From: an uncultured bacterium
GTDB taxonomy: Bacteria > Cyanobacteriota > Vampirovibrionia > Gastranaerophilales > Gastranaerophilaceae
Assembly: GCA_947428835.1 (NCBI GenBank)
Contig: CANENE010000001.1
Coordinates: forward strand, 124,001 to 188,000
Direction: 5' to 3'
DNA: 64,000 nt
The first letter of the stretch is position 1. The number at the start of each line of letters is the position of its first letter. The notes beneath the pieces were generated by a model. That model was given only the letters and a program-made list of their open reading frames with translations. It did no database searches and had not been told where the DNA came from. Of the stretch, positions 15,557 to 51,677 are shown one piece after another. The position numbers and the translations under genes were made by a program.

Positions 15557-15665
15557 AGAAAAGCTTGATGTTGCAAGATAAACAATAGTGCTTGATTTTT
15601 AAATTTGTTTCTGTTATTTTTTATAGAGTTGATAGCAGTTATCAACCTTGGATTTCAAGCAAAGA

Positions 15666-15768
15666 TTGAAAATTAAATATAATTTGCGTACGTTAGCTCC
15701 CTTAGTGGAGCGAAGCGAAACGGAATAAGTAATGTAGAGCAAGCTCTACCAACTGTTCCAACTATAAA
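15666..15768 (+). repeat. tRNA-Phe 5'-end-derived repeat unit 1 (decayed)
   Basis: The unit opens with TTGAAAATTAAATATAATTT, the same 20 bp that precede the real tRNA-Phe, then GCGTACGTTAGCTC, a damaged copy of the tRNA 5' end. It closes with GCTCTACCAACTG, the reverse complement of the tRNA D-arm. A GTAGAGC-AA-GCTCTAC hairpin lies within. It looks like a rearranged fragment of a tRNA gene. Confidence 0.6.
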
Positions 15769-15860
15769 TTGAAAACTAAATAATTTGCCGCGTTAGCCTT
15801 GGCGAGTTTACGAAGACAAAATACATATTCTCACCAACTGAGCTAACAAAAGTAAAAAAC
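15769..15860 (+). repeat. tRNA-Phe 5'-end-derived repeat unit 2 (decayed)
   Basis: TTGAAAACTAAATAATTT leads into GCCGCGTTAGC (15787-15797), an exact copy of the first 11 nt of tRNA-Phe. About 35 bp of unrelated sequence follow, then ACCAACTGAGCTAAC (15833-15847), the reverse complement of tRNA-Phe positions 7-21. So the tRNA 5' end faces an inverted copy of itself. The intact tRNA follows after the third copy of the leader. Confidence 0.6.
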
Positions 15861-15880
15861 TTGAAAATTAAATATAATTT

Positions 15881-15953
15881 GCCGCGTTAGCTCAGTTGGT
15901 AGAGCAAGGGACTGAAAATCCCTGTGTCCTTGGTTCGATTCCGAGACGCGGCA
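15881..15953 (+). tRNA. tRNA-Phe (anticodon GAA)
   Basis: The 73-nt cloverleaf has acceptor GCCGCGT / ACGCGGC, D arm TAGCTCAGTTGGTAGAGC, anticodon stem-loop GGGACTGAAAATCCC with GAA, and T arm GGTTCGATTCC. Discriminator A; CCA is not encoded. A TATAAT box ends only 2 nt before the first tRNA base, too close to give a normal 5' leader, so the true promoter is probably further upstream. Last 11 nt are repeated downstream (see the mobile element entry). Confidence 0.97.
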
Positions 15954-15967
15954 AATTTTTTGCATTT
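15943..15967 (+). repeat. Direct repeat A1 (tRNA-Phe 3' end)
   Basis: 25 bp beginning at tRNA nucleotide 63 (GAGACGCGGCA) and running 14 bp past the tRNA (AATTTTTTGCATTT). Perfect copy at 16067-16091; the bases just outside differ. Confidence 0.9.
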
Positions 15968-16066
15968 ATTATAAACTTTATTGTTTGGTCTGCGCCTCGG
16001 AGCAACCGCTTCGCTTATGCCCTCTCTTCGAAAGTGCGATTCAACGCACTTTCTCATCGGCAGAGT

Positions 16067-16091
16067 GAGACGCGGCAAATTTTTTGCATTT
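16067..16091 (+). repeat. Direct repeat A2 (copy of tRNA-Phe 3' end)
   Basis: Exact 25-bp copy of the tRNA-Phe 3' end and flank, 124 bp downstream of the original and immediately after TCGGCAGAGT. It lies 2 bp before the stop codon of the convergent gene at 16094. Confidence 0.9.
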
Positions 16092-33295: not shown

Positions 33296-33564
33296 ATATT
33301 GAGGGCGATTTTACATCACCATAGCATTTTAGTTCCAAACTGTCCGGATATTTGCTTTAATTTTATGGTTTCGTTTTTTTTATGTTCGTTTTTCTAATAC
33401 GTCATGCTGAACTTGTTTCAGCATCTGAGGTGTTGGAAATATAATAATGGGTTTTATGCATTCCCATAGACCTCGTCAGACCCTGAAACGAGTTCGAAGG
33501 TGACGAGTTGTAAAATTATTTTAAACAATCGTCGTTATGGTATGAGTAAAACAATCCAAACTCT
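33296..33564. repeat. Repeat-bearing intergenic region (dispersed palindromic repeats)
   Basis: Contains a perfect TGCTGAA / TTCAGCA hairpin (33405-33423) continuing into CATCTGAGGTGTTGG. The reverse complement of that stretch recurs near 36.92 kb and 51.42 kb. A second palindrome-like part (GACCCTGAAACGAG, GGTGACGAG) recurs near 51.36 kb. No gene seen. Confidence 0.65.
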
Positions 33565-36763: not shown

Positions 36764-37080
36764 TTTTTCTACTCTTTTCTAAATATGATTATCCGTATTC
36801 GATGTGTGTAGATATAAAGCATCTGAAAAAAAATTTTTGCTATTTAATTTATGATTTTGCGTATACCCGTCACCTATGAACTTGTTTAAGAGTCTGACCA
36901 AGTTTGTAGTAATGCATAAAATACTCCAACACCTCAGATGCTGAAACGAGGTTGGCATGACGTATTCTGCATCCCATGAGTTTACATACTTACATCTTCC
37001 CGGATTGCCGCGTCGGGCAAAGCCCTCCTTGTAATGACATAACTGCACATTAATTTATACAACCCGTCACCCTATAAAAT
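36764..37080. repeat. 317-bp intergenic region made of dispersed repeats
   Basis: Holds CAACACCTCAGATGCTGAAA (from 36927), the reverse complement of the repeat at 33.4 kb, and then a GGATTGCC...GTAATGAC unit followed by ATTAATTTATACAACCCGTCACCCT, partly shared with the repeats at 46, 47.3 and 51.3 kb. No gene is supported here. Confidence 0.65.
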
Positions 37081-44211: not shown

Positions 44212-45792
44212 ATGAAAAACAAAGCTTTTTTAAAAAAGCATGCTTTGCATCTTGAAAATGCAAAGTGCGCATTTTCTCTAGTCGAGCTTTTGGTAAGCTT
44301 GATTATAATATCTCTTTTAATTGGAGCATTTGCTCCGATTATCACAAAGAAATTAAAAGCATCGGATGTCACAGTCGGAAGCTTTTCAAGTAAAAAAGAA
44401 GAAACTGAACCGGCTTCAAGACCGCCGGCAAAAGAAGACTGCGATAAATTAAATGCCGTATTTATTCCTGCGTCTATGAATGATGGAGTTAAAAATATTT
44501 GTGTTACAAAGTTTAATATAGGAGATGATCCGAATTATTCAAAAGATAAAATAGCAACAGATACAAGCATAACTTTTGTACCTGCAGGTACGACCTGTTC
44601 TGATAATCTATGTTGCTGGTATGGAAATACCGCTATTCAAAATACATGTACAAATGTTGGAGGAGTTTATTCAGGATGCAATAGGACGGTTTGCAAATGG
44701 TGGGCTGCAAACAAAGCCTGTGCTTTTTACGCTCCAAACGGAACTAAAGCAGGAGATTGGAAGCTGCCTGATAATTCCGCTTCAATGGCTAATTGGTATC
44801 CAACGTATTCTACGGCAAGTACCGGTCTTATGCTTTGCGATCTTCAAGCGTCAGGTAGTTCCGCTTCTTTGTGTGCTAATGCAGGTAACTGTCCCGGTTC
44901 TCATACTAATTACTGTAATTCATACCATGTATGGGCTCGAAGCGATAGCGGCAGTAACGCTCAAAACAGGCACTTGCATAGTGGTGTTTGGTATGATAAT
45001 TCACACGATAAGGCGCACGCCTTTAGTGCAAGATGCATATTAGATACGGTTGCAAATGATTTTGGAAAAGAAGAGGAAAAAGACCCCGCTCCAAAATCAC
45101 AGGAAGACTGCGACAAAATCGCACCGCACACTACGTTTATAGATAAAAAATACAATGACGGATTTCACAATGTCTGTGTAACTAAATACAATGTCGGAGA
45201 TTCAGGCGGCCCTTCTTTGGGACCAAATGTTATTCAAGGCGGAAACGGGAAATGTGCAAATGGTTACTGTTGTTGGCAAAATATAACAACATCAAGCTTA
45301 TGCGGAGGAAAAAATTCAGACAGTGTATATAGCGGGTGTAATAGGGCAGTATGTCAATGGAAAGCAGGAAAAATAAGCTGCCAAAACTGGGCGCCAAACG
45401 GAAAATATAAAGGCTATTGGAGACTTCCGACTAAAGAAGAGGCCGACGGATGGGCAATAACTATGAATTCATATGATGCAAAGGGAATACCGATGCTTTC
45501 AAGCGCTATGGGTTCAAAAGGATTGCAGTTTTGTATTTATTCGGAAGCAACGGTAAATGATGAAATATATTGTTTATATAATAGCAGCGCTTGTGCAGGA
45601 GCAGAACCGGAAGGTATAAGAGCCAACTATTGCACACCATCAAGTATGTTTACATCAACATTTCATAATGAAGGCAGTGTCTATAGTTTAGGGTTTTTAT
45701 ACAAAAAGACAGAAGTAGGAAATGATTCTGAACCTAATACCGCCCGCTCTGTCCGCTGTGTATATGATGGCTATGACCATAGCGAAGAGTAG
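44212..45792 (+). CDS. Type IV pilin-like protein with duplicated Cys-rich ectodomain
   Basis: A 20-residue leader precedes the prepilin site KCA|FSLVELLVSLIIISLLIGA, with Ala at -1, Phe at +1 and Glu at +5, followed by the usual hydrophobic helix. The ectodomain contains two diverged ~200-residue repeats. Each has DC.K, a V.KFN/YN.GD segment, CCW, YSGCNR.VC.W and a .C..(Y/W)APNGK...G.WRLP segment. The many paired cysteines suggest disulfides. At 526 residues it is far larger than a major pilin, so it is more likely a minor pilin, tip adhesin or pseudopilin processed by a prepilin peptidase (not in this window). A hairpin terminator follows. Confidence 0.82.
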   Translation: MKNKAFLKKHALHLENAKCAFSLVELLVSLIIISLLIGAFAPIITKKLKASDVTVGSFSSKKEETEPASRPPAKEDCDKLNAVFIPASMNDGVKNICVTKFNIGDDPNYSKDKIATDTSITFVPAGTTCSDNLCCWYGNTAIQNTCTNVGGVYSGCNRTVCKWWAANKACAFYAPNGTKAGDWKLPDNSASMANWYPTYSTASTGLMLCDLQASGSSASLCANAGNCPGSHTNYCNSYHVWARSDSGSNAQNRHLHSGVWYDNSHDKAHAFSARCILDTVANDFGKEEEKDPAPKSQEDCDKIAPHTTFIDKKYNDGFHNVCVTKYNVGDSGGPSLGPNVIQGGNGKCANGYCCWQNITTSSLCGGKNSDSVYSGCNRAVCQWKAGKISCQNWAPNGKYKGYWRLPTKEEADGWAITMNSYDAKGIPMLSSAMGSKGLQFCIYSEATVNDEIYCLYNSSACAGAEPEGIRANYCTPSSMFTSTFHNEGSVYSLGFLYKKTEVGNDSEPNTARSVRCVYDGYDHSEE

Positions 45793-45853: not shown

Positions 45854-45916
45854 GGATTGCAACGAGTTTTTAAAAAATTCTCGCAATGATGATTGTTCAC
45901 ATTTTAGCGCACATTT

Positions 45917-46012
45917 GTCATTGCGAACGGAGTGAAGCAATCCAGTTCCCAGATGTCTGTATACATACCTTAATGTACTGGATTGCCACGCAGCAAAGCT
46001 GCTCGCAATGAC
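45917..46012. repeat. Dispersed palindromic repeat (large inverted repeat)
   Basis: GTCATTGCGA ... GCAATCCAG faces CTGGATTGC ... TCGCAATGAC, so the ~96 bp can fold into one long hairpin. Related half-units are present near 37.0, 47.3, 51.3 and 51.5 kb. No coding potential is supported. Confidence 0.75.
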
Positions 46013-46083
46013 ATAGCTACGCATTAATTTAAACATACGTCACTGCAAGAGAACGTAAGTGACCGTGGCAGTCCAGTTCCGTG
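45978..46083. repeat. Dispersed repeat, copy 1 of a ~110-bp unit
   Basis: Starts CTGGATTGCCACG, then CGCAATGAC, a T/A-rich joint, and a 50-bp tail (46033-46082) that matches 47348-47397 at 49 of 50 positions, ending CAGTCCAGTTCCGT. The ends are inverted relative to each other. Confidence 0.75.
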
Positions 46084-47170: not shown

Positions 47171-47482
47171 GCTACAAATTATTCGACGATTTTCAGGGTA
47201 CTATTAGCAAAATCTTAAAATTCACTTTGTTGAATAAGAGATAAATTTGGCTACAGTTTTTTGTACTTGTTTTCCTGCTTTATTGTTCTGGATTGCCACG
47301 AGGCAATTTTTTGCCTCTCGCAATGACGGTGCTGCACTTTAATTTATACATACGTCACTGCAAGAGAACGTAAGTGACCATGGCAGTCCAGTTCCGTCGT
47401 GTCCATATGCCTACATCTTCCCGAATTGTCATGGCATATTAAAATATACCTCGCAATGACGATAATTATAATAAGATATAAT
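47171..47482. other. Intergenic region with repeats downstream of the G9 gene
   Basis: The first ~75 bp are probably the true 3' end of the preceding gene in another frame. The rest is the second copy of the ~110-bp dispersed repeat and AT-rich filler before the tRNA-Lys element. Confidence 0.5.
47288..47398. repeat. Dispersed repeat, copy 2 of the ~110-bp unit
   Basis: CTGGATTGCCACG, a GAGGCAATTTTTTGCCTC hairpin, CGCAATGAC, then the 50-bp tail nearly identical to the one at 46033-46082. The central hairpin differs in sequence from copy 1 (GCAGCAAAGCTGC) but keeps a fold-back shape. Confidence 0.75.
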
Positions 47483-47509
47483 AAACCAAGAAATAATTTG
47501 GGTCCGGTG
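47483..47509 (-). repeat. Direct repeat B2 (copy of tRNA-Lys 3' end)
   Basis: Exact 27-bp copy of the tRNA-Lys end and flank, 122 bp beyond the original, immediately following TCGGCAGAGT on the minus strand. Confidence 0.9.
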
Positions 47510-47604
47510 ACTCTGCCGAAAAAAAGTTGCCTTGAATGGCAAGTTTTTTGAGAGGGCATAAGCGAAGCGATTGCTCCCGACGGACCTCTTTGCTTTTCAT
47601 TCAC

Positions 47605-47631
47605 AAACCAAGAAATAATTTGGGTCCGGTG
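47605..47631 (-). repeat. Direct repeat B1 (tRNA-Lys 3' end)
   Basis: On the minus strand: CACCGGACCCA, the last 11 nt of tRNA-Lys, plus 16 bp of flank (AATTATTTCTTGGTTT). Confidence 0.9.
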
Positions 47632-47693
47632 GGACTCGAACCCACGACCAAGTGATTAAGAGTCACCTGCTCTACCAACTGAGCTACAAACCC
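47621..47693 (-). tRNA. tRNA-Lys (anticodon CTT)
   Basis: The 73-nt cloverleaf on the minus strand has acceptor GGGTTTG / CGGACCC (two G-T pairs), D arm TAGCTCAGTTGGTAGAGC, anticodon loop CTCTTAA (anticodon CTT, codon AAG), and T arm with GGTTCGAGTCC. CCA is not encoded. Its 3' end is duplicated downstream by element B. Confidence 0.95.
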
Positions 47694-47762
47694 AAAATTA
47701 TATCTATAATATAAAATAATCACATACAAAAATCAACCAAATTACGCCCTAATTTTAAAATA

Positions 47763-51215: not shown

Positions 51216-51677
51216 GTTGTTTTTTGTCACTGTGTGTAAGTGAAGTAGTTTGGTTCCTATATGCTTAGCAACTTAACTTTAATTTCCCAAATTGCCATGC
51301 GCAAATTTATTTAAATTACGCTCGCAATGACGTATTTTAAATATCAATTCATACAACCGTCACCCTAGACTCGTTTCAGGGTCTCATTAAGTATAGTAAA
51401 ATATAAAATTTATCATTGCATTCCAACACCTCAGATGCTGAAACAAGTTCACTTTGGCATATTGTATGCATTATTGTTTCCATTCGTCACTGCAAACCGA
51501 GTGAAGCAATTCATCTCCATAGTGTATATACCTGTATCTTTCTTGATTGCCGTGAGGCAATTCTTGCCTCTTGCAATAACATAGCAATTTTTAAAATTTT
51601 TTAAAGATAATCATATAGTCATTTTTATGTTATAATTCACATATTCAATTACACTCGGGCTTTATAAGGACATAAAG
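51216..51677. repeat. 462-bp intergenic region packed with dispersed repeats
   Basis: Holds a CAAATTGCCATGCGC...GCTCGCAATGACG unit (51287-51333), CCGTCACCCTAGACTCGTTTCAGGGTC, then CAACACCTCAGATGCTGAAA (from 51424), the same block as near 33.4 and 36.9 kb, and CGTCACTGCAAACCGAGTGAAGC with a GATTGCCGTGAGGCAATTC hairpin (51480-51590). No gene is supported. The last ~75 bp carry the lptB promoter region and AAGGA ribosome-binding site. Confidence 0.7.

Follow-up and report, generated by a model that had tools for sequence, protein, structure and literature searches.

Duplicated tRNA ends in the window

The window, a 64-kb stretch of DNA (G000:C1:124001-188000) within the 1.8-Mb, 24-contig assembly of the source genome G000, contains intact genes for tRNA-Lys(CTT) and tRNA-Phe(GAA), each accompanied by a second copy of its own 3′ end on the far side of a short insert (Table 1). 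At tRNA-Lys, the repeated sequence is CACCGGACCCAAATTATTTCTTGGTTT; with a repeat of 27 bp and a spacing of 122, the insert is 95 bp long (47510-47604). At tRNA-Phe, 25-bp repeats enclose an insert of 99 bp (insert A). The two inserts are related: GGAGCAAYCGCTTCGCTTATGCCCTCTC is common to both, both terminate in TCGGCAGAGT, and the two loci agree at 75% over 87 aligned nt. The 20-mer CGCTTCGCTTATGCCCTCTC occurs twice in the window and not at all in shuffles. An earlier note on this DNA had described the tRNA-Lys repeat around its 95-bp insert and the kinship of the inserts, and both descriptions are confirmed. It had also placed the start of the duplicated tRNA part at nucleotide 63; both copies do start there (canonical numbering counted from T54T55C56; ARAGORN index 64), but the repeat also extends into the 3′ flank of the gene.

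Table 1. Features at the tRNA-Lys and tRNA-Phe loci, in window positions.
Feature	Position	Strand	Basis
Intact native tRNA-Lys(CTT), target gene	47620..47694	-	ARAGORN; Rfam tRNA 72.3 bits (L003)
Native copy of 27-bp duplicated stretch: tRNA-Lys nt 63-73 + 3′ flank	47605..47631	-	Offset 122, 27 identical nt
Lys insert, 5′ part: AT-rich, then GGTCCGTCGGGAGCAATCGCTTCGCTTATGC	47555..47604	-	Read from sequence
hp2 hairpin, 45 nt; 5′ end CTCTC, 3′ end TCGGCAGAGT	47510..47554	-	Sequence; family-level covarying stem
Distal (second) copy: tRNA-Lys nt 63-73 + ~16 nt flank	47483..47509	-	Repeat comparison
Intact native tRNA-Phe(GAA), target of insert A	15880..15954	+	ARAGORN
Native copy of 25-bp duplicated stretch: tRNA-Phe nt 63-73 + flank	15943..15967	+	Repeat comparison
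Insert A, 5′ part, with CTCGGAGCAACCGCTTCGCTTATGC resembling inverted tRNA-Phe T-arm	15968..16021	+	Sequence
Insert A hp2 hairpin, CTCTCTTCGAAAGTGCGATTCAACGCACTTTCTCATCGGCAGAGT	16022..16066	+	Sequence
Distal copy: tRNA-Phe nt 63-73 + flank	16067..16091	+	Repeat comparison
Partial 5′ tRNA-Phe copy (flank + nt 1-11)	15780..15797	+	Offset -94

In the 5′ part of the Lys insert, GGTCCGTCGGGAGCAATCGCTTCGCTTATGC resembles the inverted T-arm of tRNA-Lys, GGTGGGACTCGAACC. The whole Lys insert folded no better than its shuffles (z -0.35, not significant), and the support for the hairpin labelled hp2 in Table 1 is comparative, coming from its many copies. None of the proteins of the 64-kb window is implicated. 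The window also holds a REP-like inverted-repeat family (GTCATGCTGAACTTGTTTCAGCATCT...; 33396-33508, 36865-36966 and 51421-51463) and an ORF (44212-45792) whose N-terminus, AFSLVELLVSLIIISLLIGAFAPIITKKL, resembles that of pilins and which contains two Cys-rich repeats (VCVTKYN... domains).

The insert beside the partial 5′ copy of tRNA-Phe is of the hairpin type and holds an inverted D-arm, caccaactgagctaac, without hp2. It has counterparts elsewhere in the source genome, where further partial copies of tRNA 5′ ends form a second group, with other hairpins in place of hp2 in their inserts; these lie at tRNA-Leu(TAG), Leu(CAA), Phe, Pro(GGG), Lys(TTT), Arg(TCT), Val(TAC) and Met (C8:58970), and in the window at 15660-15873. 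An inverted D-arm is present in several of these inserts, and those at Leu-TAG and Leu-CAA both contain GTTTGTGTTTTACRAAGTAAAACCAAACAAATAA. The set suggests that other hairpin families may have taken the same route.

A hairpin with a covarying stem and fixed ends

The unit common to both inserts, hp2, is ~40-46 nt long and consists of CCTCTC, a covarying stem and TCGGCAGAGT. Its anatomy was described from 200 distinct copies. Among 41 distinct 40-nt versions, 94.9% of pair cells were paired, compared with 69.6% when shuffled; the covariation score was 0.69, compared with 0.20 in shuffles, and both sides had changed in all 10 pairs. These figures show that the stem is real. Both ends of the unit are fixed, the first between C and CTCTC and the second directly after TCGGCAGAGT, and conservation upstream stops after ~4 nt. 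The 5′ neighbour is CTAC in 66/200 copies and TTAC in 25/200, with the C at -1 as the sole fixed position. Tandem units are frequent, with periods mostly of ~70-145 bp.

Rfam searches of eight loci at E<=1 gave, besides tRNA, weak matches far under the gathering scores and left the inserts of L002 and L003 uncovered; a search of 20 loci at the gathering score found tmRNA and 5S alone, and no Rfam family corresponds to hp2. We also considered whether TCGGCAGAGT derives from the D-arm of a tRNA and rejected this, the best match to the element's own tRNA having 2 mismatches and most having 3-5.

Junctions lie at fixed positions of structured-RNA genes

At the end of TCGGCAGAGT, 104 of the 200 copies pass into a partial copy of a tRNA or tmRNA gene close by, with 17 tRNA species and tmRNA represented, and the native gene remains intact beside the partial copy. 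On the 3′ side, the copy starts at nt 62-63 in 33/34 cases; on the 5′ side, where the element is antisense to the tRNA, it starts at nt 10-12 in 45/70 and at nt 17-20 in 23/70, these positions being calibrated to within about 1 nt and counted on loci partly picked by rank, not randomly, with copies of one tandem array non-independent. Read against the tRNA cloverleaf, the junction positions correspond to the T-loop or the D-loop. The outer end of the duplication is variable, from 9 to >60 nt. Single cases in tRNA-Met (L109 and L115) have their junction in the anticodon loop, the T-arm of tmRNA is the target of three tandem units (L178), and 5S rRNA is a target at L118. At the end of the L178 array, and at L415, the copy is just 9-11 nt long with unrelated flank beyond.

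From two loci, the earlier note had proposed that unrelated tRNAs are hit at one structural position and that no fixed att sequence is recognised. The wider set bears out the first point, and settles the second, since the junction sequence differs with each tRNA. Targeting of the 5′ half (D-loop) in antisense, of the occasional anticodon loop and of 5S rRNA goes beyond what had been claimed.

At tRNA genes, the native gene and its flank come first, then in many cases a piece of an arm in inverted orientation, then hp2, a second copy of the gene end running outward from the loop, and flank again. The arm piece that often precedes hp2 is an inverted copy of an arm of the target tRNA itself: exact runs average 8.8 nt at 3′ sites, compared with 6.05 nt for other tRNAs (maximum 17 nt), and 6.9 nt at 5′ sites, compared with 5.1 nt. 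Inverted arms of >=8 nt are present in 16/30 elements of the 3′ class and 24/65 of the 5′ class; a long example is TCGGAATCGAACCAAGG at tRNA-Phe (L486).

Placement of hp2 within a host hairpin is weakly enriched (19% vs 8%), an effect too mild to support a rule that places every hp2 in the apical loop of such a hairpin. At L252 and L151, hp2 is seemingly inserted without duplication into a palindromic family (cgtcattgcgag...ctcgcaatgac) that has relatives in the window at 45892-46050 and 47317-47433.

Distribution within Gastranaerophilales

The source genome has 10 exact copies of hp2, nine of them at <=~110 bp from a tRNA gene: on the 5′ side of Leu-CAG, Leu-GAG (a case pieced together across two overlapping contig ends) and Pro-TGG, on the 3′ side of Phe, Lys-CTT, Leu-CAA and Arg-ACG, and on both sides of Met. 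Eight of the nine run straight into a copy of the tRNA end. Just 0.63% of the genome lies that near a tRNA gene, so chance is excluded (binomial P ~1.6e-19). An hp2-like hairpin, CTTGAAGYGCAATTCAATGCACTTCAAG, is present in two copies (G000:C3:~81018 and G000:C2:~54803), both distant from tRNAs and with ~60 bp of common flank.

The pattern CTCTC-N-TCGGCAGAGT was found in 179/191 genomes of the family to which the window belongs (Gastranaerophilaceae), and a reversed-pattern control gave zero matches in nearly all of the same genomes. In a phylum-wide sample of 292 genomes, nearly all family members carry the pattern and the sole member of the order from another family has five copies; the five other members of the class have 0 copies, and matches in the rest of the sample are isolated, with no convincing hairpin, consistent with chance. 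Among the matches listed from GTDB species genomes, at least 56 copies are hairpin-confirmed, and for 30 of these a tRNA lies no more than 300 bp away. Confirmed copies with a taxon name, among those matches, come from Gastranaerophilales/Melainabacteria/Cyanobacteria MAGs, and the listed matches outside Gastranaerophilales showed no convincing hairpin, consistent with chance. Carriage by phages was considered and rejected: among the matches listed from viral contigs, one had a stem of >=7 bp and none lay beside a tRNA. The assemblies are mostly MAGs and all of the evidence is comparative; copy numbers are lower bounds, because many arrays stop at contig edges.

Copy number differs widely within genera: in g7, G138 has 42 copies and G073 has 0; in g14, G104 has 39 and G175 has 0; and in g10, G047 has 61 and G075 has 2. 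Some genomes have many or even most of their copies away from tRNAs. In G098, 18/79 copies lie within 450 bp of a tRNA and 61/79 do not, which partly contradicts the targeted insertion proposed in the earlier note. Many of the non-tRNA copies in G098 sit in a longer structured dispersed repeat of ~220-300 bp, which begins gtcaactgaccccgac, contains one or two hp2 hairpins and is present in many copies (L373-L397); repeats of the gtcaactgaccccgac type are also found at L148, L153, L199 and L218.

Within the genus, loci of tRNA-Lys(CTT) carry an intact hp2 and Lys copy at L402, L409 (two units), L415 and L424, and degenerate remains at L406 and L423, and most others are empty. The occupied loci L424 and L415 and the empty loci L422 and L426 have ~1.6 kb of alignable upstream sequence in common, and this tRNA-Lys locus is therefore polymorphic between species.

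Candidate mover genes

At 95-99 bp, the inserts are too short to contain a gene, and an integrase-sized ORF would not fit. Elsewhere in the genomes, the Y1 transposase (PF01797) is absent from G000, G138, G104, G101, G158, G020 and G077, which have about 10-42 copies, and reverse transcriptase (PF00078) is absent from G098, G005, G138, G118, G072 and G171. Cas1 (PF01867) was found in 5/30 genomes, G000 among them, and is absent from most copy-rich genomes, including G098, G047, G005, G138 and G104. Thus G138, with 42 copies, has neither Y1 transposase nor reverse transcriptase nor Cas1, and G005, with 46 copies, has neither reverse transcriptase nor Cas1 and just two integrase-domain genes, presumably XerC/XerD. 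As a universal mover, Y1/RAYT, reverse transcriptase, Cas1 and extra tyrosine recombinases were each rejected, each being missing from some copy-rich genomes; the co-occurring integrase or reverse transcriptase for which the earlier note had suggested a search does not emerge.

Many Gastranaerophilales have several proteins of ~180-210 aa with a tyrosine-recombinase domain besides two full-length integrases (for example G000:C6:29005, G000:C8:92339 and several in G138). These are possibly invertases, and are not needed for hp2 because they are absent from G005.

A proposed replication model and its alternatives

The reading that we favour, tentatively and at somewhat under an even chance, is that hp2, a short mobile hairpin that encodes nothing, spreads when replication stalls at tRNA arms and switches template there. 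As part of this best explanation, hp2 would colonise the arm loops of structured-RNA genes in Gastranaerophilales, a gut-bacterial order. The structure would form during replication, while the acceptor strand of the gene is being copied by an incoming polymerase. The polymerase would stall in the loop of the arm hairpin, a step suggested by end geometry alone, then take as new templates an hp2 copy already present and the inverted arm, restart in the flank and pass the gene a second time, leaving a complete gene. The event would resemble a tandem inversion duplication with hp2 at the joint, and would require no host function for hp2. The doubled stretch would be the part copied twice, and would therefore start at the stall, which is fixed, and end at the restart, which is variable. 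Stalling, switching and restart would together account for the fixed and variable ends, the intact gene, the tandem arrays and the absence of any transposase common to all copy-rich genomes.

Several observations count against this replication model. A recombinase that cuts the loop, combined with an ill-defined second cut, would leave a similar scar; two fixed hp2 ends are what enzyme recognition would lead one to expect; many copies are distant from tRNAs, an inverted arm of >=8 nt is present in just part of the elements, and location inside a host hairpin is weakly enriched as a general rule; and the copies of 9-11 nt (the L178 end and L415) are not predicted by a simple restart without later change.

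A serious possibility, nearly as likely as the replication model, is that a putative dedicated enzyme, specific for hairpins or single-stranded DNA, moves hp2 as a non-autonomous transposon. It would cut one strand in the tRNA arm loop and the opposite strand in the flank; filling of the gaps would then yield a target-site duplication (TSD) of variable length, and selection would retain just those events that preserve the tRNA. Fixed ends at both sides of hp2, strong stem covariation such as a recognised hairpin would show, and an order-wide family with occupied and empty syntenic sites are all consistent with such an enzyme, and it has precedents in the casposase, which targets tRNA 3′ ends through the T-psi-C loop with a TSD (PMC9939771), and in Yersinia YPAL, with TSDs of 3-26 bp at dyad targets (PMC2229807). 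Against it, none of the candidates Y1 transposase, reverse transcriptase, Cas1 and extra integrases is present in all copy-rich genomes, and cutting with gap filling alone yields no inverted target arm.

We think it improbable that the structures are instead functional cis-acting RNA parts of tRNA operons kept by selection, in which a decoy half-tRNA with its hairpin would tune the processing, termination or expression of the neighbouring tRNA. The strong association with RNA genes, a covarying stem that fits RNA, and partial tRNA copies in leader or trailer positions would agree with such a role. However, one and the same hairpin lies both antisense upstream and sense downstream of tRNAs, most loci of a given tRNA in sister species lack it, and in genomes such as G098 it lies far from RNA genes; its tandem arrays are identical, and the Lys insert, as noted above, is no more foldable than shuffles.

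It is very improbable that ordinary integrative elements of the tRNA-targeting kind (tyrosine-recombinase islands) left the inserts behind as remnants with attL/attR: the duplicated tRNA 3′ end resembles an att core, but the duplicated stretch differs per tRNA and extends into flank that is specific to each gene, 5′ ends too are duplicated by the same insert, in antisense, conserved hp2 ends and a covarying stem are unexpected for random remnants, and copy-rich G005 has so few integrase-domain genes.

More broadly, it is possible, and we advance it with caution, that hp2 represents a class of mobile element in which one non-coding ~45-nt hairpin recognises its targets, on either strand, by loops in folded RNA genes and rebuilds a full gene copy by local direct-inverted-direct duplication. 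If this reading is true, the gene copy is rebuilt and the hairpin can therefore accumulate in essential single-copy tRNA genes; a selfish sequence could live there harmlessly through recognition of DNA structure, not of sequence. The copies would then also provide, for hundreds of species, a natural record of the sites at tRNA genes where replication fails. Covariation of the stem in related copies might arise from self-correction of the DNA hairpin and not just from selection on RNA, which bears on how covariation is interpreted.

Comparison with known systems

In the literature covered (open-licence full texts), we found no description of an hp2-like element. In behaviour, it comes closest to YPAL of Yersinia, REP elements, the casposase with its T-psi-C targets and tandem inversion duplications. 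YPAL/RU-2 of Yersinia is palindromic, non-coding and ~168 bp long, with variable TSDs of 3-26 bp and targets of dyad symmetry (PMC2229807). Like YPAL, hp2 is a small non-coding hairpin with no known transposase, duplications of variable length and targets at or next to dyads; unlike YPAL, it is ~45 nt long, uses tRNA loops and is associated with an inverted target arm, and the two lineages are unrelated. YPAL is not known to target tRNA loops, and no inverted target-arm copy has been described for it.

The GTAG/CGTC REP elements of the RAYT (Y1) system are 20-40-bp palindromes tagged at one end and often in tandem (PMC3733652). Both they and hp2 are palindromes with alternative complementary stems and a tag at one end, often in tandem with flanking DNA of variable length. 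However, hp2 has no 5′ GTAG or CGTC tag, GTAG being present just at the 3′ foot of the complementary strand; Y1 is absent from several copy-rich hp2 genomes, and REPs are not known to be anchored at tRNA loops.

Integration of the casposase Cas1 at tRNA 3′ ends is set by the T-psi-C loop (PMC9939771). Duplication of tRNA ends, tandem insertions and a liking for single strands are common to casposons and hp2, and the 3′ class of hp2 (33/34 at nt 62-63) invites comparison with the casposon site; the majority class, however, is antisense and on the D-loop side. Casposons are large, with terminal inverted repeats and a TSD of about 15 bp, unlike hp2, which also uses D-loops on the opposite strand and is copy-rich mostly in genomes without Cas1.

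Models of tandem inversion duplication and foldback template switching are discussed in PMC4689423. Like tandem inversion duplications, hp2 loci have a direct-inverted-direct arrangement, a locally duplicated segment and foldback joints. The segments of tandem inversion duplications are far longer than those associated with hp2, and their joints are not known to be occupied, as those of hp2 are, by a conserved family-wide hairpin.

Rickettsia palindromic elements (RPE) are small hairpin repeats in RNA genes, including tmRNA (PMC2229807); they lie inside genes, whereas hp2 leaves the gene intact beside a partial copy. Tyrosine-recombinase elements that target tRNAs, with an attP core identical to the tRNA end and an integrase gene that serves them, differ from hp2, in which the duplicated sequence varies per tRNA and the 95-99 bp hold no integrase-sized ORF, and retroelements (group II intron, retron, target-primed reverse transcription) differ in that reverse transcriptase is missing from several hp2 genomes. 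For REP/RAYT, casposons, tRNA-targeting integrases and retroelements alike, hp2 lacks defining features among those compared. In kind, it belongs with the short palindromic repeats that are non-autonomous, being non-coding, <200 bp, multi-copy and dispersed, with target duplication, as bacterial MITEs and short palindromic repeats are broadly defined.
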